Source of the DNA: Tautonia marina
GTDB lineage: Bacteria; Planctomycetota; Planctomycetia; Isosphaerales; Isosphaeraceae
DNA: 64,000 nt
Direction: 5' to 3'
Assembly (NCBI RefSeq): GCF_009177065.1
Contig: NZ_WEZF01000010.1
Span: forward strand, 1-64,000
In this document: piece by piece, positions 3,519 to 59,917 of the stretch
How positions within the stretch are numbered: the first letter of the stretch is position 1
Layout: each line of letters opens with the position of its first letter
Translations under genes and position numbers: made by a program
Notes under the pieces: generated by a model
Database searches by the model: none
The model's input: the letters and a program-made list of their open reading frames with translations, nothing else
Told to the model about the DNA's origin: nothing

Positions 3519-5255
3519 CTACATCCCCGCCATCGCAAGCCCCGCTGCTGCCGCTGTCGCCAGCAGGAGGATCGCCGTCAGCCACACCTCCGCCATCCGG
3601 AGGAGGTGGCTTCGTCGCCCGTTTCCCGGGCTGAGTTCCTCGAAGTACCGCGTCAGCGTGGTCTGGATCGGCGGCACGCCAGGGGTGAAGGTGATCGCCG
3701 TCCGTGCCGGCAGCGCCACGACCTCCTCCGGCTTGAGAAGCTTTCTGGCCTGCTGCGACCAGTTCGCGTTGCTGCCCCAGGACTCGGTCAGGCTCGTGCT
3801 CGGCTCCGGGCTGTTGACCTGCCGCGAGCCGCCGTTGTTCGTCCCGCCGGAGTCCACGACGATGGTCGACTCGCCCAGCCGGGAGCTCACGAACTCCGAG
3901 GTCTGCTGGTCGTTGACGCCGAAGAAGACCTGCGTGGTATTCGAGATAAGTGTGGTGTCGCCACCCTCGCCCCAGCACTTTCGGAGCTGCCCCATCGACT
4001 GGTAATAGAACTGGAGGCGCACGCCGTAGCCGCGATACTTGTCCACCGCGTCGTCGAGGCAGTCCATGCGCCCCAGGCTCGCGGCCTCGTCGAGGATGAA
4101 GTCCACCGCGTTCTGCTCCTGGAGGCCCCCATCCACGACCGCCCGCAGGGCCGCACCGACCCACAGCCGCAGCAACCCGGCCTGGGGCGAGATCTGCTTG
4201 GGCGGCAGGACCAGGTAGAGCGTCATCCTCCCCTTGCGTAGGTCGGACAGGTCGAAGCTGCTGGACCTCGTGCTCGCTGCGATGGCGGGCGTGTCGAGGA
4301 AGTTCATGAACCGGTTCGCCGTGCTCAGGACCGACCCGAGTTCCTTGTCCTTGAAGTTCGTGAGCTGGTTGCCGAGGCGGGCCACCATGCCCTCGTGGCC
4401 GGTCTCATTGCGCAGGACTTGGACGATCGCCTCTCGCTTGGCCGGGTCGGTCAGGAGCGTCCTCACGGCCTGCAGCGACCGGTTCTCGTCCCGCCCGTAC
4501 AGCGTTACGGCGACGATGATGGCGGTGATCCAGAGTTCGGCGCTGTCGTTCCAGTACGGGTCCTTCTCCTCGCCCGTCCTGATGACCATGGCGTTCGCGA
4601 GCGCCCGGCATTCGTCGATGAGCTGTGGCGACTTCGGATCGATCGAGTCGAGGGGGTTGAAGGTGTCGGGGCTCTGCGTGACGACTGTGAACGGATCGAG
4701 CACCACGGTCTTGTGGCCGAACCTCTCCTGGCGATGCCTGGCGGTGATCTGGTAGTTCTCGCCCTTGAAGTCAATGACGACCATCGACCGGGGGCTGTTG
4801 AGCAGGTGCGGGATGACGCAAGAGACTCCCTTGCCCACGCCGGTCGGGGCGAAGACCGCGATGTGGACGGCGTTCGAGAGGCGCACCAGGGCTGATTCCT
4901 GCCTGCCCCGCTGGAGCTTCCTCATCGAGTAGACGAACCGCTCGCACGCGACGCCGGCCGGGACACGCCTGTCGAACAGCCCATTGAGCGATTCGAAGAA
5001 TCCCCTCTTGGGCAGGGCGATCCGCCCGATGAGCAGGCCCGGCTTGTCGGACAGCAGCCCGGCTCGCTCCAGGTCGTCCGCGTCCGCCCATCGGGCCGTG
5101 CCGTGGCTGGTGAGCCGGACGACCTTGCGCCCGCCGAGATACACGACGGCAGCGGCGCCGACGATCAGGATCGCGGGGTATCGGAGCATGAAGGCGAAGC
5201 CGAGGGCGGCGATGCCGAGGATCCCGGCGATGAGGAGGGCGCGACAGAGTCGCAT
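3519..5255 (-). CDS. VirD4/TraD-type conjugative coupling ATPase (578 aa)
   Basis: Type IV coupling proteins are membrane-anchored ATPases that bring the relaxase-DNA complex to a type IV secretion channel. Two N-terminal hydrophobic spans (about residues 6-41) precede the motor. A Walker A motif PTGVGKGVS lies at about 137-145, followed by IDFKGENYQ, which is typical of VirD4/TraG, and then a Walker B ILDEAASLG at about 387-395. A QFYYQS motif and a VFFGVNDQQTS segment also fit this family. An extra hydrophobic helix ends the protein, which is not usual for VirD4. The ATG at 5255 has AGGAG upstream. No mating-channel genes accompany it in the window. Confidence 0.88.
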   Translation of the reverse strand: MRLCRALLIAGILGIAALGFAFMLRYPAILIVGAAAVVYLGGRKVVRLTSHGTARWADADDLERAGLLSDKPGLLIGRIALPKRGFFESLNGLFDRRVPAGVACERFVYSMRKLQRGRQESALVRLSNAVHIAVFAPTGVGKGVSCVIPHLLNSPRSMVVIDFKGENYQITARHRQERFGHKTVVLDPFTVVTQSPDTFNPLDSIDPKSPQLIDECRALANAMVIRTGEEKDPYWNDSAELWITAIIVAVTLYGRDENRSLQAVRTLLTDPAKREAIVQVLRNETGHEGMVARLGNQLTNFKDKELGSVLSTANRFMNFLDTPAIAASTRSSSFDLSDLRKGRMTLYLVLPPKQISPQAGLLRLWVGAALRAVVDGGLQEQNAVDFILDEAASLGRMDCLDDAVDKYRGYGVRLQFYYQSMGQLRKCWGEGGDTTLISNTTQVFFGVNDQQTSEFVSSRLGESTIVVDSGGTNNGGSRQVNSPEPSTSLTESWGSNANWSQQARKLLKPEEVVALPARTAITFTPGVPPIQTTLTRYFEELSPGNGRRSHLLRMAEVWLTAILLLATAAAAGLAMAGM

Positions 5256-5548
5256 GGCTGGTTCTCCTGATTGGGACGACGACGAGCGAGGGCGGCAAGG
5301 AACGCCACAAGGGCAGCGCCTCCGGACAGCACCGTGAACCGCTGCATCCACTGGGCATTACGAACGGCTAGGATCTGCTCTTGGCTGGGCTTTGCCTTGA
5401 GCGGGTTGGGCTGGTCGAAGAAGTCGAGGTTGCCCTCGATCTCCTCCGCCGCCCGTGGGACGCTGCTGGCCTTGTCGATGAGGGCGACCGACCGCTGGTA
5501 GCAGCACACCGCGCAGACCGTGAGCGCGGCGGCGATGATGAGCCGCAT
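5165..5548 (-). CDS. Membrane protein with two hydrophobic segments (127 aa)
   Basis: The start at 5548 has a strong GGAGG site. An N-terminal hydrophobic stretch (IIAAALTVCAVCC) may be a span or signal. A second one (FTVLSGGAALVAFLAALA) lies at about residues 71-88. The serine- and proline-rich C-terminal 35 residues are encoded over the first 91 bp of the coupling ATPase gene in another frame. The overlap suggests translational coupling of a small membrane partner to the ATPase. No family is recognised. Confidence 0.6.
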   Translation of the reverse strand: MRLIIAAALTVCAVCCYQRSVALIDKASSVPRAAEEIEGNLDFFDQPNPLKAKPSQEQILAVRNAQWMQRFTVLSGGAALVAFLAALARRRPNQENQPCDSVAPSSSPGSSASPPSASPSCSDTPRS

Positions 5549-5712
5549 AGGCACCTCCGAAAGTTGTTGACCGAATGGGCGAGGCGTGGCAGGGTTCGAG
5601 AGCTGCGGCGGCGTGGATGGACACGCTTGCAAGGACAGGGCGTCGCGTTCACGGCGTAACCTGAGACCGGAATCAAGCCCGGCCCGCAGCAACGCCCCCC
5701 GCCACATGGCGC

Positions 5713-5734
5713 ACCCGCCTCGCAAGGGGCGGGT
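5713..5734 (-). terminator. Hairpin just downstream of parB
   Basis: ACCCGCC (5713-5719) and GGCGGGT (5728-5734) form a 7-bp stem directly after the ParB stop codon (5737). No T run follows, so its terminator activity is uncertain. The rest of 5549-5712 holds no convincing gene. Confidence 0.35.
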
Positions 5735-5736
5735 TA

Positions 5737-6525
5737 TCACCCAGCCTTCGCCTTGTCCCTGCACACAGCCTGAAGCGTTTTGGCGTCGAGGCCCTGGTCG
5801 CGGCCCTTCCGCATTTCCTTTTGCGCTTCCTGCACGGCCTCGATGGCCTCATCCAGCGTCATGTCGTCGCCGGAGATCGTGACCGTGGTTCCGTTGGTCA
5901 GGGCGATCTTGATCTTGCTGGCTCGAACTGCGGGCGCTGCGCTGGCTCGCTTCTTCCGCCCCTGCTGCTCCAGCATGTCGCGGCTGGCGCCTGACAGCTT
6001 TAGGGCCAGGAGCGCGGGCTGGTCATCCGGCGGCAGCTTGCTGATCGCGTAGATGTCGCTAATGCCCAGCTTGCCCTCTCGCAGCGCCTCCTGCGCCTCG
6101 GGGATGCACCGCGATGGCGAGAGCAGCCGCGTCACCGTGGACGGGTCGAGGTGCAGATGCTCGGCCAGCTCCTTGCCCTGCCAGCCGTTCAGCTCCAGCA
6201 GCTCCCGGCACGCCTGCCACTTCTCGTAGGGCGTCAGGTCGGAGCGGTGGATGTTCTCGGTCAGCTGCATCCCACGCACCTGCGCTGTGGACAGCTCCCC
6301 GTCCACGACGATGACCTGGAGCGATTCGAGGCCGACCAAGGCGGCGGCCCGGTATCGCCTGTGCCCGGCGATGATCGTCCCGTCCGGCCGCGCCAGCACT
6401 GGCTGAAGCTGCCGCTCCCGAAGCGACTCGCCGAGGAGCCGCAGTTCACATTCGTCGTAGGTCTGCCTGGCCTGCCCCGTGTCGGGCTTGAAGAAGGCCA
6501 GCGGCTTGATCTCGAGTTTCGGCAT
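5737..6525 (-). CDS. parB: ParB/RepB/Spo0J-family partition protein (262 aa)
   Basis: ParB proteins bind centromere-like parS sites, spread as CTP-dependent clamps and work with a ParA ATPase to segregate plasmids. The ParB N-terminal domain is clear: GHRRYRAA at residues 54-61 and the ENIHRSDLTPYEK block at about 90-102. The helix-turn-helix KELAEHLHLDPSTVTRLL lies at about 118-135. A GAGGCGG site precedes the ATG at 6525. No ParA gene is visible in the window, so it either lies outside or the protein acts as a lone regulator. Three dyad repeats 170-230 bp upstream are possible binding sites. Confidence 0.85.
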   Translation of the reverse strand: MPKLEIKPLAFFKPDTGQARQTYDECELRLLGESLRERQLQPVLARPDGTIIAGHRRYRAAALVGLESLQVIVVDGELSTAQVRGMQLTENIHRSDLTPYEKWQACRELLELNGWQGKELAEHLHLDPSTVTRLLSPSRCIPEAQEALREGKLGISDIYAISKLPPDDQPALLALKLSGASRDMLEQQGRKKRASAAPAVRASKIKIALTNGTTVTISGDDMTLDEAIEAVQEAQKEMRKGRDQGLDAKTLQAVCRDKAKAG

Positions 6526-6651
6526 GGCCGCCTCGTAAATGCCTGTTATGCAAGACGTTAGGAGAACGGATTGCAGGATTTACAAATGGCGCGCCAAACC
6601 CTGCGCGACACAAAAAGAATGTCGCAAGGGATTTAAACAGAGCGAGTTGCG

Positions 6652-6680
6652 TTAACCGGACTCGCAGCGTCCGGTATTTA
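6652..6680 (+). promoter_or_regulatory. Possible weak plus-strand promoter
   Basis: TTAACC (6652-6657) and TATTTA (6675-6680) are separated by 17 bp, and a CCGGAC/GTCCGG dyad (6656-6661 and 6669-6674) lies between them. The match to sigma-70 consensus is only moderate. Its position just before the operator-like repeats at 6696-6753 makes it plausible as a repressed promoter. Confidence 0.3.
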
Positions 6681-6695
6681 TGGATGCGTGCGCCC

Positions 6696-6753
6696 GGCAA
6701 AGATTACCCGGTAAAGTTTGCCGGTGAGATGATGTGAATGGGTAAAGCTTACC
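6696..6753. repeat. Three operator-like dyads GGYAAAGNTTRCC
   Basis: The sites GGCAAAGATTACC (6696-6708), GGTAAAGTTTGCC (6710-6722) and GGTAAAGCTTACC (6741-6753) share a 13-bp near-palindromic consensus. Starts are 14 and 31 bp apart; 31 bp is close to three helical turns. They lie in the 605-bp non-coding region upstream of parB. I interpret them as binding sites for a dimeric protein, either a repressor or ParB itself. Confidence 0.6.
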
Positions 6754-6965
6754 CAAAAACAGCACCTATGAACGGAGTATCCCCCCGGAAAGCTGAAACC
6801 CGAGCTTTTTCGGATGGTCTCCATGGCTGGTACTGTACCGATGAGCGCTATTGCGGGCAAGGGGGCGGTCAGCGACACGTCGCTCTGCCCGCCCGATCTG
6901 GGGCAGCAGTCTGAACACTCAAAGCAATCCCCACCAGCTCCAGGCCCCGACCGACGCCTATTCTT

Positions 6966-7110
6966 GGCACGATGAACCCGCCGCCGGGATGCGCAAGCAG
7001 AGAATCGGCTCCCCCCGAGGGTCTCCCCCAATTCTCTGCTTGCCCACCGCCGAGGCTTCCCGTCCAAGGCGGGTTCTGTGGGCGTGCCGTAAGGCTCGAT
7101 GGTCGAGCCT
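6966..7110 (+). promoter_or_regulatory. Highly structured RNA leader upstream of the 65-aa gene
   Basis: Three nested helices are visible: GGCAC/GTGCC (6966-6970 with 7084-7088), GAACCCGCC/GGCGGGTTC (6974-6982 with 7068-7076) and a perfect 13-bp stem GCAAGCAGAGAAT/ATTCTCTGCTTGC (6993-7005 with 7031-7043). A separate 8-bp hairpin AGGCTCGA/TCGAGCCT (7092-7099 with 7103-7110) follows, 20 nt before the start codon at 7131. No protein-coding frame in this stretch looks real. It could be a 5' leader, a small RNA or an attenuator. Confidence 0.6.
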
Positions 7111-7130
7111 GTAACTAGAAGGAGAATGTT

Positions 7131-7328
7131 ATGACTGATTCCAAACCCATCGCCATCATCCGCCAGACCACGACTGTCTCTATCGCTTTCGCCGAGAAGC
7201 CCTCGGAAGAACGCCGCCGACAGCTGCGTGACGCTGGCTATCGCTACGAGAACGGCAACTGGTTCCGTAGCGAGCCGCATAGCCAGATGGCTACCGAGGA
7301 ACTGGTTGCGCAAGTCCTCGCGGCGTAG
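7131..7328 (+). CDS. Small conserved-type protein (65 aa)
   Basis: The gene has an AAGGAG ribosome site 8 nt before the ATG and a terminator-like hairpin after its stop. The C-terminal half carries LRDAGYRYENGNWFRSE, a short beta-rich motif that I associate with small plasmid and phage proteins of unknown function. The protein is otherwise charged and soluble. Its structured leader and its own terminator suggest a monocistronic, individually regulated gene. Confidence 0.65.
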   Translation: MTDSKPIAIIRQTTTVSIAFAEKPSEERRRQLRDAGYRYENGNWFRSEPHSQMATEELVAQVLAA

Positions 7329-7338
7329 TAACAACGAA

Positions 7339-7363
7339 GGGGTGCAGCCGGAAACTGCACCCC
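7339..7363 (+). terminator. Terminator-like hairpin after the 65-aa gene
   Basis: GGGGTGCAG (7339-7347) and CTGCACCCC (7355-7363) form a perfect 9-bp stem with a 7-nt loop, followed by TCAATTA. The T tract is weak. It separates the small gene from the methyltransferase gene. Confidence 0.6.
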
Positions 7364-7393
7364 TCAATTAACCGCTAAATGGAGTTAGCGATT

Positions 7394-9190
7394 ATGGATT
7401 CTGTTTACAACAGTCCCATCCCTCTGGCAATATCCCCTGACGAACTGATCGTCGACAACTTCGCTGGTGGCGGCGGCGCGTCGCTCGGCATCGGCATGGC
7501 CCTTGGCCGGTCACCGGACATCGCCATCAACCACGACCAGGAAGCGATCGCGATGCACGCCGCGAACCATCCAGAGACGAAGCACTACTGCGAGGACGTC
7601 TGGCACGTCGACCCCGTCGAGGCCTGCGCCGGTCGCCCGGTCGGCCTCGCTTGGTTCAGCCCGGACTGCAAGCACTTCTCGAAGGCCAAGGGCGGCAAGC
7701 CCGTCAGCAAAAAGATCCGCGGCCTCGCCTGGGTCGTGATCCGGTGGGCGAAGGCCGTCAAGCCGCGCGTCATCATCCTGGAGAACGTCGAGGAGTTTCA
7801 GGACTGGGGACCGGTCCTCCCCAACGGCCAGCCGTGCCCATTGCGGAAGGGCTTAACTTTCCGCCGCTGGAAGTCCCAGCTCGAAAACCTTGGGTACCGC
7901 GTCGAGCTGAAAGTCCTTCGGGCGTCGGACTTCGGCACACCCACAATTCGCAAGCGGCTATTCATGGTCGCCCGCTGTGACGGACTGCCGATCCGTTGGC
8001 CTGAGCCTACGCACGCAGATCCCAAGAAGATCCAGCAAGACCTGTTCAGCATCAACCTTAAGCCCTGGCGGACCGCCGCCGAGTGCATCGACTGGTCGCT
8101 GCCGTGCCCGAGCATCTTCGATCGAGACCGTCCACTGGCGGAGAACACGCTCCGCCGGATCGCCGCTGGTATCCGCCGGTTCGTCATCGAGGCGAGCGAG
8201 CCGTTCATCGTCAACCTGACCCATCACGGCAGCGACCGCGTCGAATCGCTCGATGAGCCGTTTCGAACCGTGACGGGGGCGAACCGCGGCGAGAAGGCGC
8301 TGGTGACGCCGTTCATCGCGCGAACCGCGCACGGCGACGTCGACAAGAACGGCAAGCGTCGGGGCAAAGGTCAGCATTCGGTAGGCGAGCCGCTCCATAC
8401 GGTGACCGCGTCCGGCGACTATGCCATTTGCACACCGTTCCTTGCCGGCGTCGGTGGCCGGGCCGGTCAGTCCCCAGAGCGCTCGCCGGACATGCCCTAT
8501 CAGACGATCACGGCGAAAGCGGATGCCGCTCTCGTATCCCCTATACTCGTCGGCACTGGCGGACCGGCCTACTCGGCAAAGCCCCGCCCTGCCGGGCAGC
8601 CCATCCACACGATGACGACAGACTCGCGGGCGGCCCTCGTGTCCGCGTTTCTTGCCCAGCACAACAGCGAGCGAGGGGACGGCGTGAAGGCGGGCCGTAA
8701 GGCAACCGAGCCTGTGAGCACGATCACGTCGTCCGGATCCCACCAGCAGGTAGTGACGTCCCACCTGCTCAAGCTCTACGGGACTTGCAGGGACGGCCAG
8801 CCGGTGACCGAGCCGGTCTCGACGATCCGGGCCGAGGGGACCCACCTCGCGGAGGTCCGGGCCTTCCTGATCAAATACTTCGGCACCGACCAAGACCCGA
8901 GGCTCGAGGAACCATTGCATACCGTCACCAGCAAGGACCGATTCGGCCTGGTCACCGTCCGGGGCGAGGACTATGTGATCGTGGATATCGGCCTTCGGAT
9001 GCTGACCCCGCCCGAACTCTACCGGGCGCAGGGCTTCCCCGAGCACTACCTGATCAGCCCGGTCATCGGCGGCAAGCGGCTCAGCAAGACCGCCCAGGTC
9101 CGGATGTGCGGCAACTCGGTCTGCCCGCCGATCGCGGCCGCGGTTGCGAGGGCGCAATTTGAAACCGCTCCTCTGGCGAGGGCGGCATGA
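7394..9190 (+). CDS. DNA cytosine-C5 methyltransferase with internal repeats (598 aa)
   Basis: The enzyme transfers a methyl group from S-adenosylmethionine to cytosine in DNA. Motif I (NFAGGGGASLGIG, about residues 22-34), the catalytic cysteine motif SPDCKHFS (Cys92; classical enzymes have PCQ) and ENVEEF (about 130) are present. A RKRLFMVARC motif follows, and the C-terminal motifs end in MCGNSVCPPIAAA. Between motifs VIII and IX lie about seven repeats of the form EPxxTVTxxxxxALV. I use the ATG at 7394, which has GGAG upstream; an ATG at 7379 is the alternative. The gene overlaps the next methyltransferase by 4 bp. Likely role: protection of element DNA from restriction. Confidence 0.88.
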   Translation: MDSVYNSPIPLAISPDELIVDNFAGGGGASLGIGMALGRSPDIAINHDQEAIAMHAANHPETKHYCEDVWHVDPVEACAGRPVGLAWFSPDCKHFSKAKGGKPVSKKIRGLAWVVIRWAKAVKPRVIILENVEEFQDWGPVLPNGQPCPLRKGLTFRRWKSQLENLGYRVELKVLRASDFGTPTIRKRLFMVARCDGLPIRWPEPTHADPKKIQQDLFSINLKPWRTAAECIDWSLPCPSIFDRDRPLAENTLRRIAAGIRRFVIEASEPFIVNLTHHGSDRVESLDEPFRTVTGANRGEKALVTPFIARTAHGDVDKNGKRRGKGQHSVGEPLHTVTASGDYAICTPFLAGVGGRAGQSPERSPDMPYQTITAKADAALVSPILVGTGGPAYSAKPRPAGQPIHTMTTDSRAALVSAFLAQHNSERGDGVKAGRKATEPVSTITSSGSHQQVVTSHLLKLYGTCRDGQPVTEPVSTIRAEGTHLAEVRAFLIKYFGTDQDPRLEEPLHTVTSKDRFGLVTVRGEDYVIVDIGLRMLTPPELYRAQGFPEHYLISPVIGGKRLSKTAQVRMCGNSVCPPIAAAVARAQFETAPLARAA

Positions 9191-48739: not shown

Positions 48740-49387
48740 GTGCTCCGTCAGTCCCTCGCCCTCGTCACCCCTCCGGCCAGCGAGCCCGTTTCGCTGTCCG
48801 AGGCCAAGGCGTGGGCGAGGATCGACGGCAGCGACGACGACGCGACCCTTACGGCGCTCATCACCGCCGCCCGTCTGGCCGCCGAGCAGTACCTCCGCCG
48901 CTCGCTGATCACCCAGACCTGGAAGCTAACCCTCGACCTGTGCGGCGCCAGGGGCTCCGAGCCGTGGTGGGACGGCGTCGTGGACGGGCCGCTCAATTCC
49001 CTCTATGGCGGCCTGCCCAACACGATTCCCCTTCCCAGGGGGCCGGTCTCCGCCATCTCCTCGGTCGTAACCTACGACCTGGACAACTCTTCCGCGACCT
49101 ATTCCGCCAGCAACTACCGCCTGGACAACTCCGGCGACCGCCTGATCCTGAACTACGGGGCCATCTGGCCCGCGAACATCCGCCCGAAGGCCGGGTGCGA
49201 GATCACCTACACCGCCGGGTACGGTTCGGCTGCCACTGCCGTCCCCCAGCCGATCAAGCAGGGCATCCTGATCCACGTCGCGAGCCTCTACGAGCAGCGT
49301 GGCAACTGCGAGGACGCCATGGCCCTGCCGCCCGGAACCGCCATGCTCTACTCGCCTTACCGGATCATGGGGGATCGCCTTGGCTGA
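48740..49387 (+). CDS. Head-tail connector, gp6-like (215 aa)
   Basis: The gene begins with GTG at 48740. Its opening VTPPASEPVSLSEAKAWARIDGSDDDATLTALITAARLAAEQYLRRSLI is the signature of phage gp6-like head-tail connectors (DNA-packaging adaptors), which attach below the portal. The C-terminal half contains ITYTAGYGSAATAVPQPIKQGILIHVASLYEQRG. Length is typical. Confidence 0.88.
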   Translation: MLRQSLALVTPPASEPVSLSEAKAWARIDGSDDDATLTALITAARLAAEQYLRRSLITQTWKLTLDLCGARGSEPWWDGVVDGPLNSLYGGLPNTIPLPRGPVSAISSVVTYDLDNSSATYSASNYRLDNSGDRLILNYGAIWPANIRPKAGCEITYTAGYGSAATAVPQPIKQGILIHVASLYEQRGNCEDAMALPPGTAMLYSPYRIMGDRLG

Positions 49388-51098
49388 ATGCTGCGCGTCG
49401 ATCGTCAACAGCCTGAGCAAGCGGGTAGCCATCCAGCGCGTCCAGTACCAGGCCGACGGGCAGGGAGGCTTCGAGGAAAGTTGGGCGGACGTCGCCACGG
49501 TGTACGCCTCCATCGTGCCGCTGAAGTCCTACGAGCGCTACCAGGCCATGCAGCTCGCGGTGCCGATCACCCACAAGGTGGTCATGCGCTACAACCCGGA
49601 CGTGGACGAGACGACCCGGCTGCGGTACGGCGAGCGGATCTTCACCGTTAAGGAGGTGATCAACCACGAGGAGCAGAACCGCTTCCTGTTCCTGAAGGTC
49701 ATCGAGACAGACGTCATCGACAGCAACACCGACCCCGTGGTGGCCATCAACTCGCTGACCGACGAACTCGGCCAGCTCATTACCGACGAGCTTGACAACC
49801 CGATCGACATCACCCCCAACCCGGTGCCGATCATCACTAGCGCGAGCAATTACACCGTTACCGAAGGAGTTACACTCACCTTTGCCGTAGCGGCCGATGG
49901 TCCGGTCACCTGGAGCATCGAGGGCGCGGACGAAACCCGATTCACCCTGGTCGGTAACGTCATCACCCTGCCGTACCAGGATTTCGAGACCCCGACCGAC
50001 GCCGACGGCGACAACGTCTACGAGCTCACCGTCCGGGCCACCAACGCCCAGGGCAACTCGACCGCGCAGGCCGTTCGGGTCACGGTCACGAACCTGATCG
50101 ACGACATCACGCCGGACGCCTTCGTATTCCCGGACGTGCTGACGCCGCTGCGCGACACGCCCTTCACGACAGAGACCATCACCCTCTCGGGCATGAACGT
50201 GCCCGCTAACCTGACGATTACCAACGGCCTGTATTCGCTTAACGGTGGAGAATTCACGAGCGCCCCGGCCGTCGTGTTCACGGGGGATACCATCGCCCTG
50301 CGTGCCACCTCGTCGTCGGACGGCACACCGGTGGTGGCAACACTCACCGTGGGGACCTACTCAACGAACTTCGGCATCTACGACGACCCGAACCCGCCCG
50401 TCACCTCAGGCCTTCGGCTGTGGCTCAGTTCCTCGGTCGCCGAATACATCGTCAGCTCTGGCGGACTGGTCAGCCAATGGACGGATCGCAGCGGGAACGG
50501 GAACCACCTCACCCAGGGCACGGCGGTCAACCAGCCTACAACGGGCACCCGCACGCTCAACGGCCGCAATGCCCTCGACTTCGACGGCACAAACGACTTC
50601 ATGCTCCTGCCGAGCGCACTGCACTCGATCCCCGGCGCGAACAACACCGTCTTCGTCGTGGCTCTGAGCGACACCGGGGCTGGCTCCGGTGGGGCCCAGG
50701 CTCTGCTACGTGGTGATACGACGAACTTCCAGATGCAGTTCAACCCCGGCAGCGCCCGCATCGAGAATCGGAACCACACCAGCACCAACGTCTTCACCAC
50801 CGTAACAAAGAACGCCACGGCCAACATTTTCGCCCAGTGCCGGAACGGCTCTGCCCTGACCGCCTGCTTTAACACCACACAGACCGTCAACGCCTCAGGC
50901 GCGAACAACGTGACCGTGACCGGCATCGGCCTGGGTGGCAGCGCGACCGGTACGCAACCGTTCAATGGCCTGATCGCCGAGGTGCTCGTCTACAACCGGG
51001 CGTTGACGCTGGCCGAGGCCAACCAGGTGGCGACTTTCCTGAAGGACAAGTGGAACGTGGCCAACTTCTCCGGCTCCTACGCCAGCGGCTTCGCCTGA
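49380..51098 (+). CDS. Head-closure protein fused to cadherin/Ig-like and LamG-like domains (572 aa)
   Basis: The first 115 residues (LSKRVAIQRVQYQADGQGGFEESWADVATVYASI through RLRYGERIFTVKEVI) are a head-tail adaptor of the SPP1 gp16 type. About 450 additional residues follow. They include a cadherin-like domain (VPIITSASNYTVTEGVTLTF), an Ig-like domain (TITLSGMNVPANLTITNGLYSLNGGEFTS) and a LamG/concanavalin-like domain (GLRLWLSSSVAEYI; LDFDGTNDFMLLP; EVLVYNRALTLAEANQVATFL). Start codon is TTG at 49380, overlapping the previous gene by 8 bp. The extension likely displays glycan- or surface-binding domains at the neck. Confidence 0.85.
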   Translation: MAECCASIVNSLSKRVAIQRVQYQADGQGGFEESWADVATVYASIVPLKSYERYQAMQLAVPITHKVVMRYNPDVDETTRLRYGERIFTVKEVINHEEQNRFLFLKVIETDVIDSNTDPVVAINSLTDELGQLITDELDNPIDITPNPVPIITSASNYTVTEGVTLTFAVAADGPVTWSIEGADETRFTLVGNVITLPYQDFETPTDADGDNVYELTVRATNAQGNSTAQAVRVTVTNLIDDITPDAFVFPDVLTPLRDTPFTTETITLSGMNVPANLTITNGLYSLNGGEFTSAPAVVFTGDTIALRATSSSDGTPVVATLTVGTYSTNFGIYDDPNPPVTSGLRLWLSSSVAEYIVSSGGLVSQWTDRSGNGNHLTQGTAVNQPTTGTRTLNGRNALDFDGTNDFMLLPSALHSIPGANNTVFVVALSDTGAGSGGAQALLRGDTTNFQMQFNPGSARIENRNHTSTNVFTTVTKNATANIFAQCRNGSALTACFNTTQTVNASGANNVTVTGIGLGGSATGTQPFNGLIAEVLVYNRALTLAEANQVATFLKDKWNVANFSGSYASGFA

Positions 51099-51125
51099 TA
51101 GCAACCAGAATGTAGAGGAATGTGA

Positions 51126-52682
51126 ATGCGGATTAACGAGTTGAACGGCGGCAATGCACTCGGCTTCGCCAAACTGATCGCGCCCAGTGCCCAGTTCCCC
51201 ATCATTCAGGGCGGCGTGACCTACCCCATCGCACTTCAGGACGCCCTTCGCGCCGGCCAGTTCTACATCGACCCCCACGCCTTTGGTGCGAAGGGGGATG
51301 CAGTGGCAAACGTGGATGGGGTGATCACGAACGGCACGACCCTCACCTCCGCGACCTACCAGTTCACCGAGAAGGACGTGGGCAAGCTCTGCTTCATCAA
51401 CTCCAGCGAGCGAACCATCACGTCCGTATCGAACGGCTCGGCCACACTGAGCGCCTCGGTATCCAACGCCAGCGCCGTGCGCTGGCTCATCGGCACGGAC
51501 GATACGGCCGCGATCGAGGCGGCGATGGAGGCGGCACGGACTGTGGGCGTCACCATCCCCGACGGGAACACGTCCGAAACCTCCCGCTGGGGCAGCATCC
51601 CATTCGGCGGTTTGGTTCAGCTTCGCAGTAGGGGCTACCTCGTGCGCAACACCCAAGCCCGCTACGACGCTGGGAAGCTTGGCGCCATCACCGTCCCTCG
51701 CCGGTGCGGCCTGCGTGGGGCCGGCATGGGCCAGACGCACATCTACCTGGCCCCCGGCAACATCGGTCACGGCATCGCCAACCGGGGTTCCTCGGTATCC
51801 GGCGGCGGCTGGGACGACTTCATGCAGCTCAGTGATTTCACACTGTTCGGAAACCACGACCTGCAGACCTCCGCCTGCCTGGACGGCATCCATTACGAGG
51901 CCGCTTTCAACAACTACCTCAAGGTGGACAACTTCACCTGCATGTCGAACATCCGCGTCTACGAGCCACGCCGGCACGGCATCTACATCAACGGTCGCGG
52001 CGAGATGGTCTACTTCAACCTCTTCGTGTACTCGGCGTTCCAGTACGGCGTGTTCATCGAGAACAACATGGACAGCCGCTTCTACTCGATCAACGCGGGC
52101 GGTTGTTCCCGAACCGGCATCCGCATCAACAAATCGGCGAACATCCACCTGACCAACTGCAAGTCGTTCTACAGCGGCAACAGTGGTGGAACGAATGCCG
52201 CCGACAGCGCCAACTTCGCGCTCATCGCGGACACATACCTCAACGGGCAGGTCATCATGACGGCCTGCGAAGCGCAGGAGTCCCGCGGTTCTGGCTTCTA
52301 CATCACCAGCGGCCTGAACATCTTCAACGGTTGCCTCGCCGCCGATCCCAGTCGCGCCGCGTTGGTGGGAAGCAGCACCCCGCCGACCGTCCGTGCCGGA
52401 TTCCACCTGGCGGACACGAACTCGGTACACGCGAACCCGAAGCACAACATCTTCAACGGATGCTACGTCCGCCCGGCCTTGACCTTGAACTACGCTGACG
52501 CCGCCGCCACGGACATGTACTGCGGCACCCACGCCGTCTACATCGATGACGCGGGCAGGGCGAATCGCGGCGACATCTACACCTTCGACCAAGCAGCCTA
52601 CGACGCCTCGAAGCTCGGAGGGCCTGGCATCTCGAACGGTCGGAACACGGGGCTGCGCGTAGACGGCACGGCATTAACCTAA
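51126..52682 (+). CDS. Pectate-lyase-like beta-helix protein (518 aa)
   Basis: The protein has the organisation of phage tailspike and appendage proteins. An N-terminal motif DPHAFGAKGDAVANVDGV and GTDDTAAIEAAMEAA leads into a right-handed beta helix with repeated Asn and Gly turns (for example RVYEPRRHGIYINGRGEMVYFNLFVY, SRTGIRINKSANIHLTNCKSF). It may bind or cleave polysaccharide; catalytic residues cannot be assigned by eye. Its place at the neck instead of the tail end is unusual. Confidence 0.75.
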   Translation: MRINELNGGNALGFAKLIAPSAQFPIIQGGVTYPIALQDALRAGQFYIDPHAFGAKGDAVANVDGVITNGTTLTSATYQFTEKDVGKLCFINSSERTITSVSNGSATLSASVSNASAVRWLIGTDDTAAIEAAMEAARTVGVTIPDGNTSETSRWGSIPFGGLVQLRSRGYLVRNTQARYDAGKLGAITVPRRCGLRGAGMGQTHIYLAPGNIGHGIANRGSSVSGGGWDDFMQLSDFTLFGNHDLQTSACLDGIHYEAAFNNYLKVDNFTCMSNIRVYEPRRHGIYINGRGEMVYFNLFVYSAFQYGVFIENNMDSRFYSINAGGCSRTGIRINKSANIHLTNCKSFYSGNSGGTNAADSANFALIADTYLNGQVIMTACEAQESRGSGFYITSGLNIFNGCLAADPSRAALVGSSTPPTVRAGFHLADTNSVHANPKHNIFNGCYVRPALTLNYADAAATDMYCGTHAVYIDDAGRANRGDIYTFDQAAYDASKLGGPGISNGRNTGLRVDGTALT

Positions 52683-52700
52683 CGCGACGAGAGGCAGATC

Positions 52701-53045
52701 ATGTCGACCACCATTATCGGCGAGTACAAGACCGTAACCATCACCAATGGGCAACCTTCCACCGGCCCCATCGACCTATTGGGCAACCGCCTGATGGGTA
52801 TCATCTGGCCCGCTGTCATGACGAATTCCGCGTTCAAGGTTCAGGTGTCCGGCAACGGCATCGATTTCGTTGACCTCAAGACGACCGAGGCGGCCAGCGC
52901 CGACCTTTCAGTCACCGTCTCCGTCGGCGAGGCGATCCCGATCACGAATGCTGCGGTACTCGCTGGCTGGCGGTGGATTCAACTCGTGGGCTCATCGAAC
53001 GAACTCGGCGATCGCAGCCTGATCCTGGCGGTAAGGCCCGTTTAA
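52701..53045 (+). CDS. Small structural-type protein (114 aa)
   Basis: The sequence is beta-rich and close to small phage structural proteins: IIGEYKTVTITNGQPSTGPIDLLGNRLMGIIWPA, then FKVQVSGNGIDFVDL and AVLAGWRWIQLVGSS. It lies between the beta-helix protein and the second LamG-like protein and overlaps the latter by one base. It probably belongs to the neck appendage. Confidence 0.6.
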   Translation: MSTTIIGEYKTVTITNGQPSTGPIDLLGNRLMGIIWPAVMTNSAFKVQVSGNGIDFVDLKTTEAASADLSVTVSVGEAIPITNAAVLAGWRWIQLVGSSNELGDRSLILAVRPV

Positions 53046-54085
53046 TGGGGCGTCTGCTCACCCTCCTCAGTCCGCGTGGTACGGGAGACACCACGGCCCC
53101 GAGCGGGTATGCAGTGGCGTTCACCACAGACCCGATCAGCGACGTCAACGCAGCGGCGGCCGCCTTTCAGATCACGCTGGCGGAGGTCGGGGCAACCTTC
53201 GATTACACGATCACCAGCTCCGGCGGCGGTACACCCGTGGCCGGCTCTGGAACTATCTCGACGGCTACGCAGAACGTGACCGGGGTGAACGTATCTGGTC
53301 TGAACGACGGCACACTTACCTTGTCGCTGACCCTAACCGATCTTTCAGGCAACACCGGGCTCGCTGCCACCGACACCGTGGTCAAGGCGTTCGCCCCCAC
53401 CGACATTTCGAACATCGCCCTGTGGCTTGATGCGGCGGACACTAGCAGCATCACGGCATCGGGCGGTGCAGTGAGCCAGTGGAACGACAAGTCCGGGAAC
53501 GCGCGCCACGCAACACAGGGCACACCGAGTAACAGGCCCACATCGGGCTCACGCACCCTCAACGGACTCAATGTCTTGGACTTCGTCCGCACCTCGCAGC
53601 ACGTGCTTGAGCTCCCGTCTGGGATGTTCGGAGTATCGGCCGGACCGAACACGGTGATCATCGTCGCTTCAGCCGACGATACCACTAACAACCACCGCCT
53701 ATACCAGGGCAGCATCTCTGGTACGGTCGGGGTGTCCGTTCGATACGCCTCTACCACGACCATGGGGGTTCAGAACCGCACGACCCTGACTCTCACAAAC
53801 ATCACTATTACGCGAAACACGAACCCTCATGTGTTCGGATTCCGCAGGTCGGGAACCTCGATAACGCCGTTCTATGACGGCACGGAAGGTTCAACAGCCT
53901 CCACCGCTCAGGATGCAACACTCACGACGCTAGGCATCGGGCGCGATCCTGCGGCCACCACGGATAGTACGGACGGGCTGTTTGCCGAGGTTCTCGTATT
54001 CGCCAAGTCGCTTTCGAACGCCGAACTGAACAAGGTGGGCAACTACCTTGCCAGCAAGTGGGGCGTTACTTGGGCTGGGGTGTAG
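53045..54085 (+). CDS. Ig-like plus LamG-like surface protein (346 aa)
   Basis: The N-terminal 125 residues form an Ig-like domain (ITLAEVGATFDYTITSSGG; VNVSGLNDGTLTLSLTLTDLSGN). The rest is a LamG/concanavalin-type lectin domain clearly related to that of the head-closure fusion protein. Shared blocks are LWLDAADTSSI, VSQWNDKSGNARHATQGTPSNRPTSGSRTLNG, LDF and EVLVFAKSLSNAELNKVGNYL. It is probably a virion surface lectin. The start overlaps the previous stop (TAATG). Confidence 0.75.
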   Translation: MGRLLTLLSPRGTGDTTAPSGYAVAFTTDPISDVNAAAAAFQITLAEVGATFDYTITSSGGGTPVAGSGTISTATQNVTGVNVSGLNDGTLTLSLTLTDLSGNTGLAATDTVVKAFAPTDISNIALWLDAADTSSITASGGAVSQWNDKSGNARHATQGTPSNRPTSGSRTLNGLNVLDFVRTSQHVLELPSGMFGVSAGPNTVIIVASADDTTNNHRLYQGSISGTVGVSVRYASTTTMGVQNRTTLTLTNITITRNTNPHVFGFRRSGTSITPFYDGTEGSTASTAQDATLTTLGIGRDPAATTDSTDGLFAEVLVFAKSLSNAELNKVGNYLASKWGVTWAGV

Positions 54086-54089
54086 GCGG

Positions 54090-54542
54090 ATGGACTTTGA
54101 AGTGAAGGTGGAGGGTCTCGACCGCATCCAGAACGCTACGCAGGAGATGCAGCGATCTGTCGAGGCCGAACTGGTCAAGGGCCTATTCGCCTCCGCCAAG
54201 CGCGTCGAAGCCGAGGCCAAGCGGAGCATCACGGCGGGGGGGAAGACCGGTCGCGTCTACCGTCGCCGCACGGTCACCCACCAGGCTTCCGCTCCGGGCG
54301 AGGCCCCGGCATCCGACACCGGGCGGTTGGTCAACTCGATCAACTCCTCCGTCGAGGGGTTGGACGGCGTCGTCGTGGCCGGCGGCGGGCTGGTCAAGTA
54401 TGCCCGCATGCTTGAGTTCGGAACCGCCAGGATGGCCGCCCGTCCCTTCATGTTCCCGGCCCTCGAAAAGAGCAAGGCCTGGATCCGCGAGCGACTCGCT
54501 AAAGCCGTCCGCATCGCGGCGGCGAAGTCCGTGGGGCGCTGA
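54090..54542 (+). CDS. HK97 gp10-family tail completion protein (150 aa)
   Basis: The HK97 gp10-like pattern is clear: VEGLDRIQNATQEMQRSVEAELVKGLFASAKRVEAEAKRSI, SAPGEAPASDTGRLVNSI, YARMLEFGTARMAARPFMFPALEKSK. It closes the tail at the neck. The normal gene order places it directly after the head-tail adaptor, so the four-gene surface cassette interrupts that order. Confidence 0.88.
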   Translation: MDFEVKVEGLDRIQNATQEMQRSVEAELVKGLFASAKRVEAEAKRSITAGGKTGRVYRRRTVTHQASAPGEAPASDTGRLVNSINSSVEGLDGVVVAGGGLVKYARMLEFGTARMAARPFMFPALEKSKAWIRERLAKAVRIAAAKSVGR

Positions 54543-54976
54543 TGCCAACACCGGATAACGCACTCCAGGCCGGCATCTACGCCCGGCTGACCGGCTACGC
54601 GCCGCTGACCACGGCGTTGCGCGGGCAGCGAGTGTTCGATTATGTCCAACCGAAACAGTCTGCCCCCTACGTCGTGATCGGCGACGACACCATCGGGGAC
54701 TTCAGCACCAAGAACGGCAACGGCTGGGACTGCACGCTCACGATCCACGTCTGGGACTTCGAGAAGGCGGGCCGCAAGTCGGTCAAGGCACTGCTCGGGC
54801 ACATTTACGACGCGCTACACCGGCAGGAGGCCAGCGTCAGCGTTTCGGGCTTCGCACTTATCGAGCTGCGCTTCGACGGCTTCCAGGCCACGTTCCAGGA
54901 GACCGCTATCGAGGGAGAGAACGACCACTACTACCACGGCGTCGCGCGGTATCGGGCGCTCGTGCAAGCAACTTAG
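54542..54976 (+). CDS. DUF3168-type tail completion/terminator protein (144 aa)
   Basis: The sequence QAGIYARLTGYAPLTTALRGQRVFDYVQPKQSAPYVVIGDDTIGDFSTKN followed by LTIHVWDFEKAGRKSVKALLGHIYDALH is typical of the DUF3168 tail terminator family, which caps the tail tube. Length is normal. The ATG overlaps the previous stop (TGATG). Confidence 0.88.
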   Translation: MPTPDNALQAGIYARLTGYAPLTTALRGQRVFDYVQPKQSAPYVVIGDDTIGDFSTKNGNGWDCTLTIHVWDFEKAGRKSVKALLGHIYDALHRQEASVSVSGFALIELRFDGFQATFQETAIEGENDHYYHGVARYRALVQAT

Positions 54977-59002: not shown

Positions 59003-59917
59003 ATGACCGACACCCTGAACCTAGACCGCGCCATCCCGACCCTGACCGAGGAATTCGACCGCCTGCTCGAGTGGCGACGGGGCTGCACGCAGGTAGACGC
59101 CAAGCCGCTCCCGTTGAACGACCCCGGCTTCAATTGGGCCGCCGGATACGTCTGGAACCACCCGATCGTAGGCCCTGACGCGCCGAAGGAGAAGTGGCCC
59201 GCAAAGAAAGCCGCCTCCTACCCGGCGTGGACCTCGAACCTTGGCTCCGGCGCCGTGGATGTCTGTCCGAATGGCGACATGATCCGCAGAATGGGCCGCA
59301 GCCTGGGGCCGTTCGACCTGTCGGGCAGCCAGGAACTTCTGGTATCGGCGAAGCCGCTGCCCGCCTACCTGGCCAAGACCGTTGGCCCCCAGGACCGGGT
59401 GAACGGCGCGGCCCCCGCCTACATGGGCGGGGCCTTCGTCAGCTTCCCCTACTCGCAGACCTTCGGCGTGTTCGAGATGCGGGCAAGGATCGCCAAAGGC
59501 AAGGGCCTCTGGCCTGCGTTCTGGCTGCTGCCGTGCGACCACTCCTGGCCGCCCGAGATCGACGTGATGGAGGTGCTCGGCAAGAGCCCCGAGACCGTCG
59601 TCTCGACCCTCCACTTCAAGGACCCGTCCGGCAAGCACAAGCAGGCGTCCGGGATCCTCAAGGGGGCTGACCTGAGCCTCGCAGTCCACGATTACGCCGT
59701 GGACTGGGGGCCGGAGGTCATCCGCTTCTACCTCGACGGCCGCCTGTTCTTCACCCATCCGACCCCTGCCTCCATGAAGAAGCCGCATTACCTGATCGTT
59801 GACCACGCCGTCGGCGGCCCGAAAAGCTGGCCAGGAGCGCCAGACGCGACCACCAAATTCCCCGCCCAGATGAGGATCTCCCACATCCGCGCCTGGCAGC
59901 GGCCCGAGTACCTATGA
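59003..59917 (+). CDS. GH16-family glycoside hydrolase in the tail module (304 aa)
   Basis: GH16 enzymes cut beta-glucans and related polysaccharides. The segment SQTFGVFEMRARIAKGKGLWPAFWLLPCD leads to the catalytic signature EIDVMEVLG, with nucleophile Glu185, Asp187 and acid/base Glu190. The later HDYAVDWGPEVIRFYLDGRLFFTHPTP and RAWQRPEYL also fit. No signal peptide is present, so the protein is probably part of the virion. The ATG at 59003 has no good ribosome site, so the start is uncertain. Confidence 0.85.
   Translation: MTDTLNLDRAIPTLTEEFDRLLEWRRGCTQVDAKPLPLNDPGFNWAAGYVWNHPIVGPDAPKEKWPAKKAASYPAWTSNLGSGAVDVCPNGDMIRRMGRSLGPFDLSGSQELLVSAKPLPAYLAKTVGPQDRVNGAAPAYMGGAFVSFPYSQTFGVFEMRARIAKGKGLWPAFWLLPCDHSWPPEIDVMEVLGKSPETVVSTLHFKDPSGKHKQASGILKGADLSLAVHDYAVDWGPEVIRFYLDGRLFFTHPTPASMKKPHYLIVDHAVGGPKSWPGAPDATTKFPAQMRISHIRAWQRPEYL

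Follow-up and report, generated by a model that had tools for sequence, protein, structure and literature searches.

The genome of Tautonia marina carries a prophage in which the head-closure protein continues in frame into a lectin-like arm and is followed by three further genes before the neck gene order resumes, and this locus raises the question of where such a cassette comes from and what it might do on a virion. The stretch that was analysed, hereafter called the window, comprises positions 1–64,000 (64,000 nucleotides) of contig NZ_WEZF01000010.1; phage structural genes are located at its end and continue on the same 258-kb contig. This structural part is a siphophage-type prophage that encodes large terminase, portal, capsid, Ad1, head closure, gp10, tail terminator, tail tube, tape measure, tail-tip genes and hub, several of these names resting on gene position and visual inspection; after the hub the contig encodes a tail-fibre-like protein of 406 residues and a phage lysozyme. 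The genome has 63 matches to PF07596 (DUF1559-type), a family typical of planctomycetes that gave no match in any of 14 control genomes, consistent with a planctomycete host. The neck order in the window is Ad1, head-closure (Hc1) fusion, cassette, gp10 and tail terminator. Every gene named in an original prediction made from the sequence, namely connector, extended adaptor, beta-helix protein, small protein, second LamG protein, gp10 and DUF3168 protein, was recovered from the open reading frames (ORFs) and profile matches, and the extension of the adaptor, put there at about 450 residues, measures about 460 residues and is in frame.

We regard the cassette as a probable mobile adhesion module, carried by a planctomycete-type temperate phage, in which one anchor has replaced another; that it sits at the neck and acts as an adhesin is what we infer. 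The argument for a mobile module with a changed anchor is that the set of four genes recurs in another phage (locus L195, see below), where it stands behind an LtfC-like domain, and here stands behind a stopper domain.

The head-closure protein and its arm

The fusion protein comprises 572 residues (49380–51098) from a TTG start, with an 8-base overlap with the Ad1 gene; a longer ORF from GTG at 49299 was set aside as a mechanical extension. Residues 11–108 match Phage_HCP (PF05521) at 77.4 bits, far above the cut-off of 25, as well as the PHROG head closure family Hc1 (E 4.7e-19), and a profile of 21 homologues matches SPP1 gp16 (2kca, E 7.3e-13) and the RcGTA stopper (6tba, E 2.6e-11). Beyond this domain the arm runs to a terminal LamG lectin-like domain; at the stop frequency of the window, an extension of 463 codons would be open by chance with P ~1e-4. 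The original prediction had proposed both a domain search and structure prediction of the fusion. The former gave a match of residues 426–546 to Laminin_G_3 (PF13385) with E 4.8e-6 and 27.2 bits, just below the cut-off of 27.6, no match to PF13385 for the second LamG protein, and no Pfam match above cut-off for the cadherin-like and immunoglobulin (Ig)-like stretches of the fusion. The latter was carried out for residues 119–572, the arm, and gave a model with a mean predicted local distance difference test score (pLDDT) of 77, mostly >90 in the LamG part, about 75–85 in the cadherin-like and about 35–63 in the Ig-like part. In this model the LamG part shows a jelly-roll fold and aligns with the tailspike of cyanophage Pan3 (9vyh_p, Z 20.0, 213 aligned residues, 2.9 Å) and with domain 4 of the arabinanase AbnA, whose structure was determined in the presence of an arabino-oligosaccharide (5hon_A, Z 19.7, 192 aligned residues, 2.7 Å). 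At the level of sequence profiles, the best solved matches are an S-layer domain protein, the minor pilin PilC and AbnA. The LamG fold is common among predicted viral proteins, with 467 matches at E ≤0.001. With a score below the Pfam cut-off, the LamG domain of the fusion is described here by its predicted fold only; the model suggests an adhesin-like arm that may bind sugar, a fold by itself being no proof of binding.

A total of 125 loci seeded with Ad1 (27 loci in named genomes, the best 80 of 470 loci in viral contigs, 17 in relatives, and the window) were compared. Head closure was found in 121 of them, and a C-terminal extension of at least 60 residues is present in 1/121, the window only; of the other neck loci, L153 is cut off by the end of its contig, and some loci represent one and the same prophage. 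In 397 genomes drawn from the class and scanned separately, a set that overlaps with the former one, the search yielded 82 head-closure matches in 57 genomes, again with a single fusion. Twenty of the 82 matches lie in frames of at least 200 residues: the window, G188 (the same as L154, unextended) and 18 others, none of which extends more than 52 residues past the domain. The remaining 62 frames have fewer than 200 residues and are too short for such an arm. A six-peptide scan of the viral contigs found no close relatives of the whole fusion, scans of this kind being weak evidence of absence.

Aligned over 238 residues, the two LamG domains show 36% identity (E 7e-36), which bears out the original prediction that they are related. 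The further idea that one arose from the other in this cassette has to be moved back in time, because each has its own counterpart of 75–76% identity in L195; judged from these alignments, the domains are paralogues whose duplication predates this phage. The beta-helix-like protein reaches 24.9 bits against Beta_helix, below the cut-off of 25.9, and its predicted model (pLDDT 38 from 3 sequences) was not used. Peptide scans for its homologues returned only the window itself among the 397 sampled genomes of the class and none among 50,697 phage records. In the viral contigs the scan gave one locus, L256, and missed a 62% identical homologue in L195 that was found via the LamG scan, so that absence from these scans is weak evidence.

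The same four genes behind another anchor

L195 (IMGVR_UViG_3300044960_000921) was found by a LamG scan of viral contigs, of which the best 80 of 406 were taken. It has all four cassette genes in the same order, with protein identities of 69% for the arm, 62% for the beta-helix-like protein, 46% for the small protein and 75% for the second LamG protein, and 70% identity at the DNA level, which agrees with the original description of these genes as a cassette. Residues 119–572 of the fusion align with residues 149–603 of the first L195 protein, and the module is sharply bounded, with one edge inside the linker that follows the head-closure domain and the other located 2 bases downstream of the final stop codon; other DNA matches between the window and L195 or the adjoining L281 are short (80–181 bases). 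L195 and L281 encode terminase, tail sheath (phrog_23, E 5.4e-38), tape measure, baseplate V (Phage_base_V, E 4.9e-8), baseplate J (Baseplate_J, E 1.8e-38) and a tail protein that matches Collar weakly. Pfam gave no tail sheath in the L195 record; the PHROG match lies on the L281 stretch. By its gene content L195/L281 is a contractile-tailed phage, with the module at its tail-fibre position behind baseplate and tail-fibre genes. In contrast to the window, where the arm follows a head-closure domain, the first protein of L195 has at its start matches to phrog_1084 (3.5e-15) and to phrog_3304, ‘L-shaped tail fiber protein assembly’ (1.1e-8). At the sequence level, the four genes recur as one unit, with the arm in frame with the stopper here and with an LtfC-like domain in L195.

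The arms of the two phages differ mostly at silent sites, with nonsynonymous and synonymous divergence (dN/dS) of 0.24/1.03; the corresponding values are 0.30/0.90 for the beta-helix-like, 0.54/1.60 for the small and 0.17/1.20 for the second LamG protein. In all four parts dN is lower than dS, as expected of proteins in use, with dS near saturation. Behind its tail hub, L256 encodes a beta-helix domain of 56% identity together with a LamG protein (34%) and a protein of the small type (28%). In L203 and L240 a stand-alone LtfC-like gene directly precedes a LamG gene, and in L251 it does so at a distance of about 490 bases (all among the best 80 of 406); the iterated LtfC-like profile also drew in ORFs of further LamG loci. 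At the neck, a separate LtfC-like gene immediately follows head closure in L023/L074 (one prophage) and in L076. No LtfC-like domain was detected with an 18-row profile in ORFs of at least 50 residues in the window or in L040, the 15 kb after the window.

Downstream on the contig, a methylase/helicase-type gene matches L195 over 2.3 kb at 85% identity, and this common stretch suggests related hosts for the two phages. The encoded protein (L040 5540–11968, corresponding to G000:C10 ~68539–74967) has 2142 residues, of which the first 750 are 85% identical to L195. A possible intein-like insert after its GAGK motif was noted by eye; Pfam at E 0.001 returned only Helicase_C.

The slot between head closure and gp10

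The original prediction held that the cassette interrupts a conserved gene order. For the wider group this is true: of the 89 loci in which both genes were identified, 69 have gp10 overlapping Hc1 or within 150 bases of it, 17 have a gap of at least 1500 bases and 3 an intermediate one (150 to 1500 bases). Nine of the 17 wide gaps are doubtful (L026, L027, L029, L031, L035, L038, L104, L125, L126), the terminator match lying well ahead of the gp10 match, and eight were accepted, i.e. the window, L022, L023, L024, L025, L047, L098 and L106, the last without a terminator match. L023 and L047, where the terminator start precedes gp10 by only 91–118 bases owing to an over-long ORF, were kept in the count. 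In the window's own clade, by contrast, the slot is occupied in every readable relative. This clade was taken as the 12 other capsid matches of at least 50% identity in the 397 genomes, up to 4 candidates having been scored in each, and both flanks are readable in nine of them: L022, L023, L024, L025, L154, L155 (with gp10 read from its twin L047), L156, L157 and L159. All nine have 2.2–9.7 kb of mostly different genes in the slot and an unfused head closure, and a close pair of head closure and gp10 was not seen in any of these nine readable of 12. As to the other three, no head-closure ORF was called in L158, where an ORF of 700 residues lies immediately ahead of gp10, L160 has no head-closure match and one gene that by eye resembles the L281 sheath, and L161 has a capsid but no further recognised neck gene. 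Compared in this way, the slot is a hot spot in this phage clade, not a one-off interruption.

When nine slot proteins of the relatives were compared with Pfam, three matched (above cut-off a GDSL lipase in L023 and a G8 domain in L022, below cut-off a LamG domain in L022) and six did not, so that the term surface proteins holds for some slots only. The window and its nearest relative L022 have no slot protein in common, despite identities of 73% in Ad1 and 87% in gp10. In a comparison of greedily picked slot ORFs with the nine relatives, which omitted the small protein of the window, an 86-residue cadherin-like stretch was found in common with L023; the comparison with L022–L025 includes the small protein, which is 32% identical to L024 and 43% to L025. 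Homologues of this protein were found in L024, L025, L047, L154, L155, L156 and L159, located upstream of Ad1 in some relatives and within the slot in others. Other clade members have some slot proteins in common, most of them between L156 and L159 (one genome), and several members have, close to head closure, a protein of 135 residues that matched PHROG ‘virion structural protein’ in the two cases compared, L047 and L157.

Two large slot proteins, L022 7513–10218 (minus strand) and L023 7997–13975, are 52% identical over 850 residues, and the former has a G8 domain and a CEMIP-type beta-helix match below cut-off. L024 carries a second block between tail terminator and tail tube (4921–7973, minus strand) that consists of a beta-helix protein, at 29.3 bits against a cut-off of 25.9, and a protein of 213 residues. 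The best phage-record match by capsid is Azospirillum phage Cd (52%); its genes behind gp38 are tail genes by eye and were discarded as adhesin candidates.

What the module may do at the neck

In this family, stoppers assemble into rings of six subunits located between connector and tail terminator, those of lambda and SPP1 being hexamers (PMC10721106, PMC9701221), and about six lectin arms would therefore be expected to project from the neck. The other three proteins would assemble with or near these arms, and the four together would make an ancillary adhesin for a host surface polysaccharide, possibly including a glycan-cutting spike, which would act beside the tail-fibre-like protein encoded after the hub. 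A possible route is that an LtfC-plus-adhesin module lay directly behind the head-closure gene and that a deletion then joined both; the separate LtfC-like gene of relatives L023/L074 and L076 has this position. On a more general level, and only tentatively, the gap between head closure and gp10 in planctomycete phages might be a general docking locus, with modules shifting between the tail-fibre locus and the neck by an anchor swap (LtfC-like for stopper) and host attachment being relocated in one recombination step. The window would offer a concrete example of how a device for attachment changes place between tail and neck through a new anchor, across tail types, and the slot is a variable locus described in phages of planctomycete-type hosts. 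If the reading is true, receptor-binding proteins are to be sought at neck loci too, not solely behind the tail hub. In literature searches on planctomycete phages, no isolated tailed phage of this group was named among the titles listed.

The original prediction regarded the neck as an uncommon site for receptor proteins. Neck-borne sugar-binding proteins are known from lactococcal phages and from Anabaena phage A-1(L); what remains distinctive is the stopper fusion, a variant of such neck fibres, as no earlier report of a lectin arm fused to a stopper was found in a search that left subscription journals mostly outside. The lactococcal 936 and TP901-1 phages bear collars at the neck whose ends are of sugar-binding, beta-helix or esterase type, and weak binding to host cells was seen for the sugar-binding domain of one neck protein (PMC6669499). 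The lactococcal protein (neck passage structure, NPS) resembles the window module in being a neck-borne arm with sugar-binding, beta-helix or esterase-like ends that vary among phages, but in the same source it has its own gene, a BppU-like N-terminal domain and a proposed 18-mer collar and is not joined to the stopper. As the N-terminus of the fusion is a head-closure domain and not BppU-like in a separate collar gene, we do not class the fusion as an NPS, only as possibly working like one. Phage A-1(L) has five neck fibres (gp82-gp81-gp80) that, like the proposed arm, end in a carbohydrate-binding module; unlike it, they are separate trimeric fibres hooked to a 15-mer ring (PMC10966104). According to PMC12886913, the stopper gp97 of Staphylococcus phage 812 has an extra external beta-sandwich, with putative neck whiskers nearby, and its N- and C-termini contact decoration proteins which probably hold these whiskers; this stopper, however, is without a lectin arm, the whiskers being other proteins. 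LtfC anchors lateral fibres as a dodecameric collar in the T5-like phage DT57C (PMC10713586), and a related N-terminal domain is found by PHROG profile in the L195 arm; that collar is located at the tail tip, and no such domain was found in the window phage. Cyanophage KBS-S-2A has a LamG ‘virion structural protein’ (CPKG_00053) directly before Hc1, in a block between Ad1 and Hc1 that contains further genes fibre- or lectin-like by eye, yet there LamG is a separate gene on the opposite side of Hc1. Such a placement is workable, as the known neck structures demonstrate.

Several points weigh against a neck adhesin with an exchanged anchor. The fusion is known from a single case, and recurrence cannot speak against a recent or damaging event. 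Both LamG proteins and the beta-helix-like protein are below or without Pfam cut-off matches. The similarity to LtfC in Pfam is weak (E 0.0011, 20 bits, cut-off 27, for the L023 protein), with no Pfam match to LtfC in the first L195 protein, and the deletion route is a guess. A covalent link to the neck exists for only one of the four proteins; of the decorated collar in the original prediction, this one member tied to the neck ring protein and its adhesin-like arm (Z near 20, in a predicted model) stand. Furthermore, the TP901-1 collar is non-essential (PMC6669499), and the sugar-binding module of A-1(L) did not bind the host, its authors doubting a role in primary recognition (PMC10966104).

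This last observation, a neck-fibre sugar-binding module without host binding, also fits an arm that serves as structural decoration or steadying whisker instead of a host-binding device, as do the neck decoration proteins of phage 812, which are thought to reinforce the neck (PMC12886913). We give this a small chance, since the same module occupies tail-fibre positions in L195 and L256 and the strong slot differences among close relatives fit selection on host range better than reinforcement. The tail-fibre positions can be turned differently: homologues encoded behind baseplate or tail hub, together with a beta-helix N-terminus that presumably resembles tail-fibre N-termini, would suit a situation in which the three separate proteins, or the whole set of four once the fusion is cleaved, reside at the tail tip or are soluble, and the head-closure domain alone stays in the neck. 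This too is unlikely, as head closure and the arm share one frame that no stop interrupts, the arm has a dN well below its dS along its length, and the slot lies between neck genes in 9/9 readable relatives. A recent accident in a decaying prophage, with impaired head closure and a defective phage, would account for the single instance of the fusion and for a head closure that is more diverged from L022 (57% amino acid identity, dN 0.39) than Ad1 (73%) and gp10 (87%), as if it had adapted to a new load or arrived with a different segment; all examined structural genes from terminase to hub and the tail-fibre-like gene are open, and we rate this explanation as very improbable. The objection of an assembly error joining two phages, raised with the original prediction, has next to no probability. 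It would need a false join at both edges on a 258-kb contig, the reading frame is kept, and the L195 homologue, only 70% identical, is too different for assembler confusion; no supporting point was found. The mobile adhesion module remains our preferred reading, and its parts and flanks are listed in Table 1.

Table 1. Coordinates of the neck genes and of the parts of the putative mobile module in the window.
Feature	Position	Strand	Basis
Ad1 head-tail connector, upstream flank of the slot	48740..49387	+	Phage_connect_1 E 3.6e-9; 73% identity to L022
Head-closure (stopper, gp16-type) domain, N-terminal part of the fusion	49380..49712	+	Phage_HCP E 1.5e-21, residues 11–108
C-terminal extension of the fusion: linker, cadherin-like and Ig-like stretches, LamG	49713..51098	+	LamG fold in predicted model; cadherin/Ig labels from sequence pattern
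Putative mobile module	49755..54087	+	blastn vs L195 7374–11719, 4385 columns, 69.8% DNA identity
Beta-helix-like protein, 518 aa	51126..52682	+	Beta_helix E 1.7e-5; 62% to L195, 56% to L256
Small protein, 114 aa	52701..53045	+	46% to L195; homologues near neck in related prophages
Second LamG protein, 346 aa	53045..54085	+	75% to L195; 36% to first LamG
gp10 / Neck1 tail completion protein, downstream flank of the slot	54090..54542	+	HK97-gp10_like E 5e-6; 87% to L022
Tail terminator (DUF3168 / gp17 type)	54542..54976	+	Tail_completion_gp17 E 7.5e-20

Two minor observations were made outside the slot. A cyanophage LamG-type gene (ON014754.1, 57655–58320) is annotated with a neurotoxin name, a label most likely transferred from fold similarity. 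In the window, a GH16 glycosidase gene (59003–59917, E 1.2e-20) is located between the tail-tip genes DUF2460 and DUF2163, and the gap between these two genes measures 1180 bases, compared with at most 395 bases in 16 other loci with both genes (the pair in L078 being spurious).

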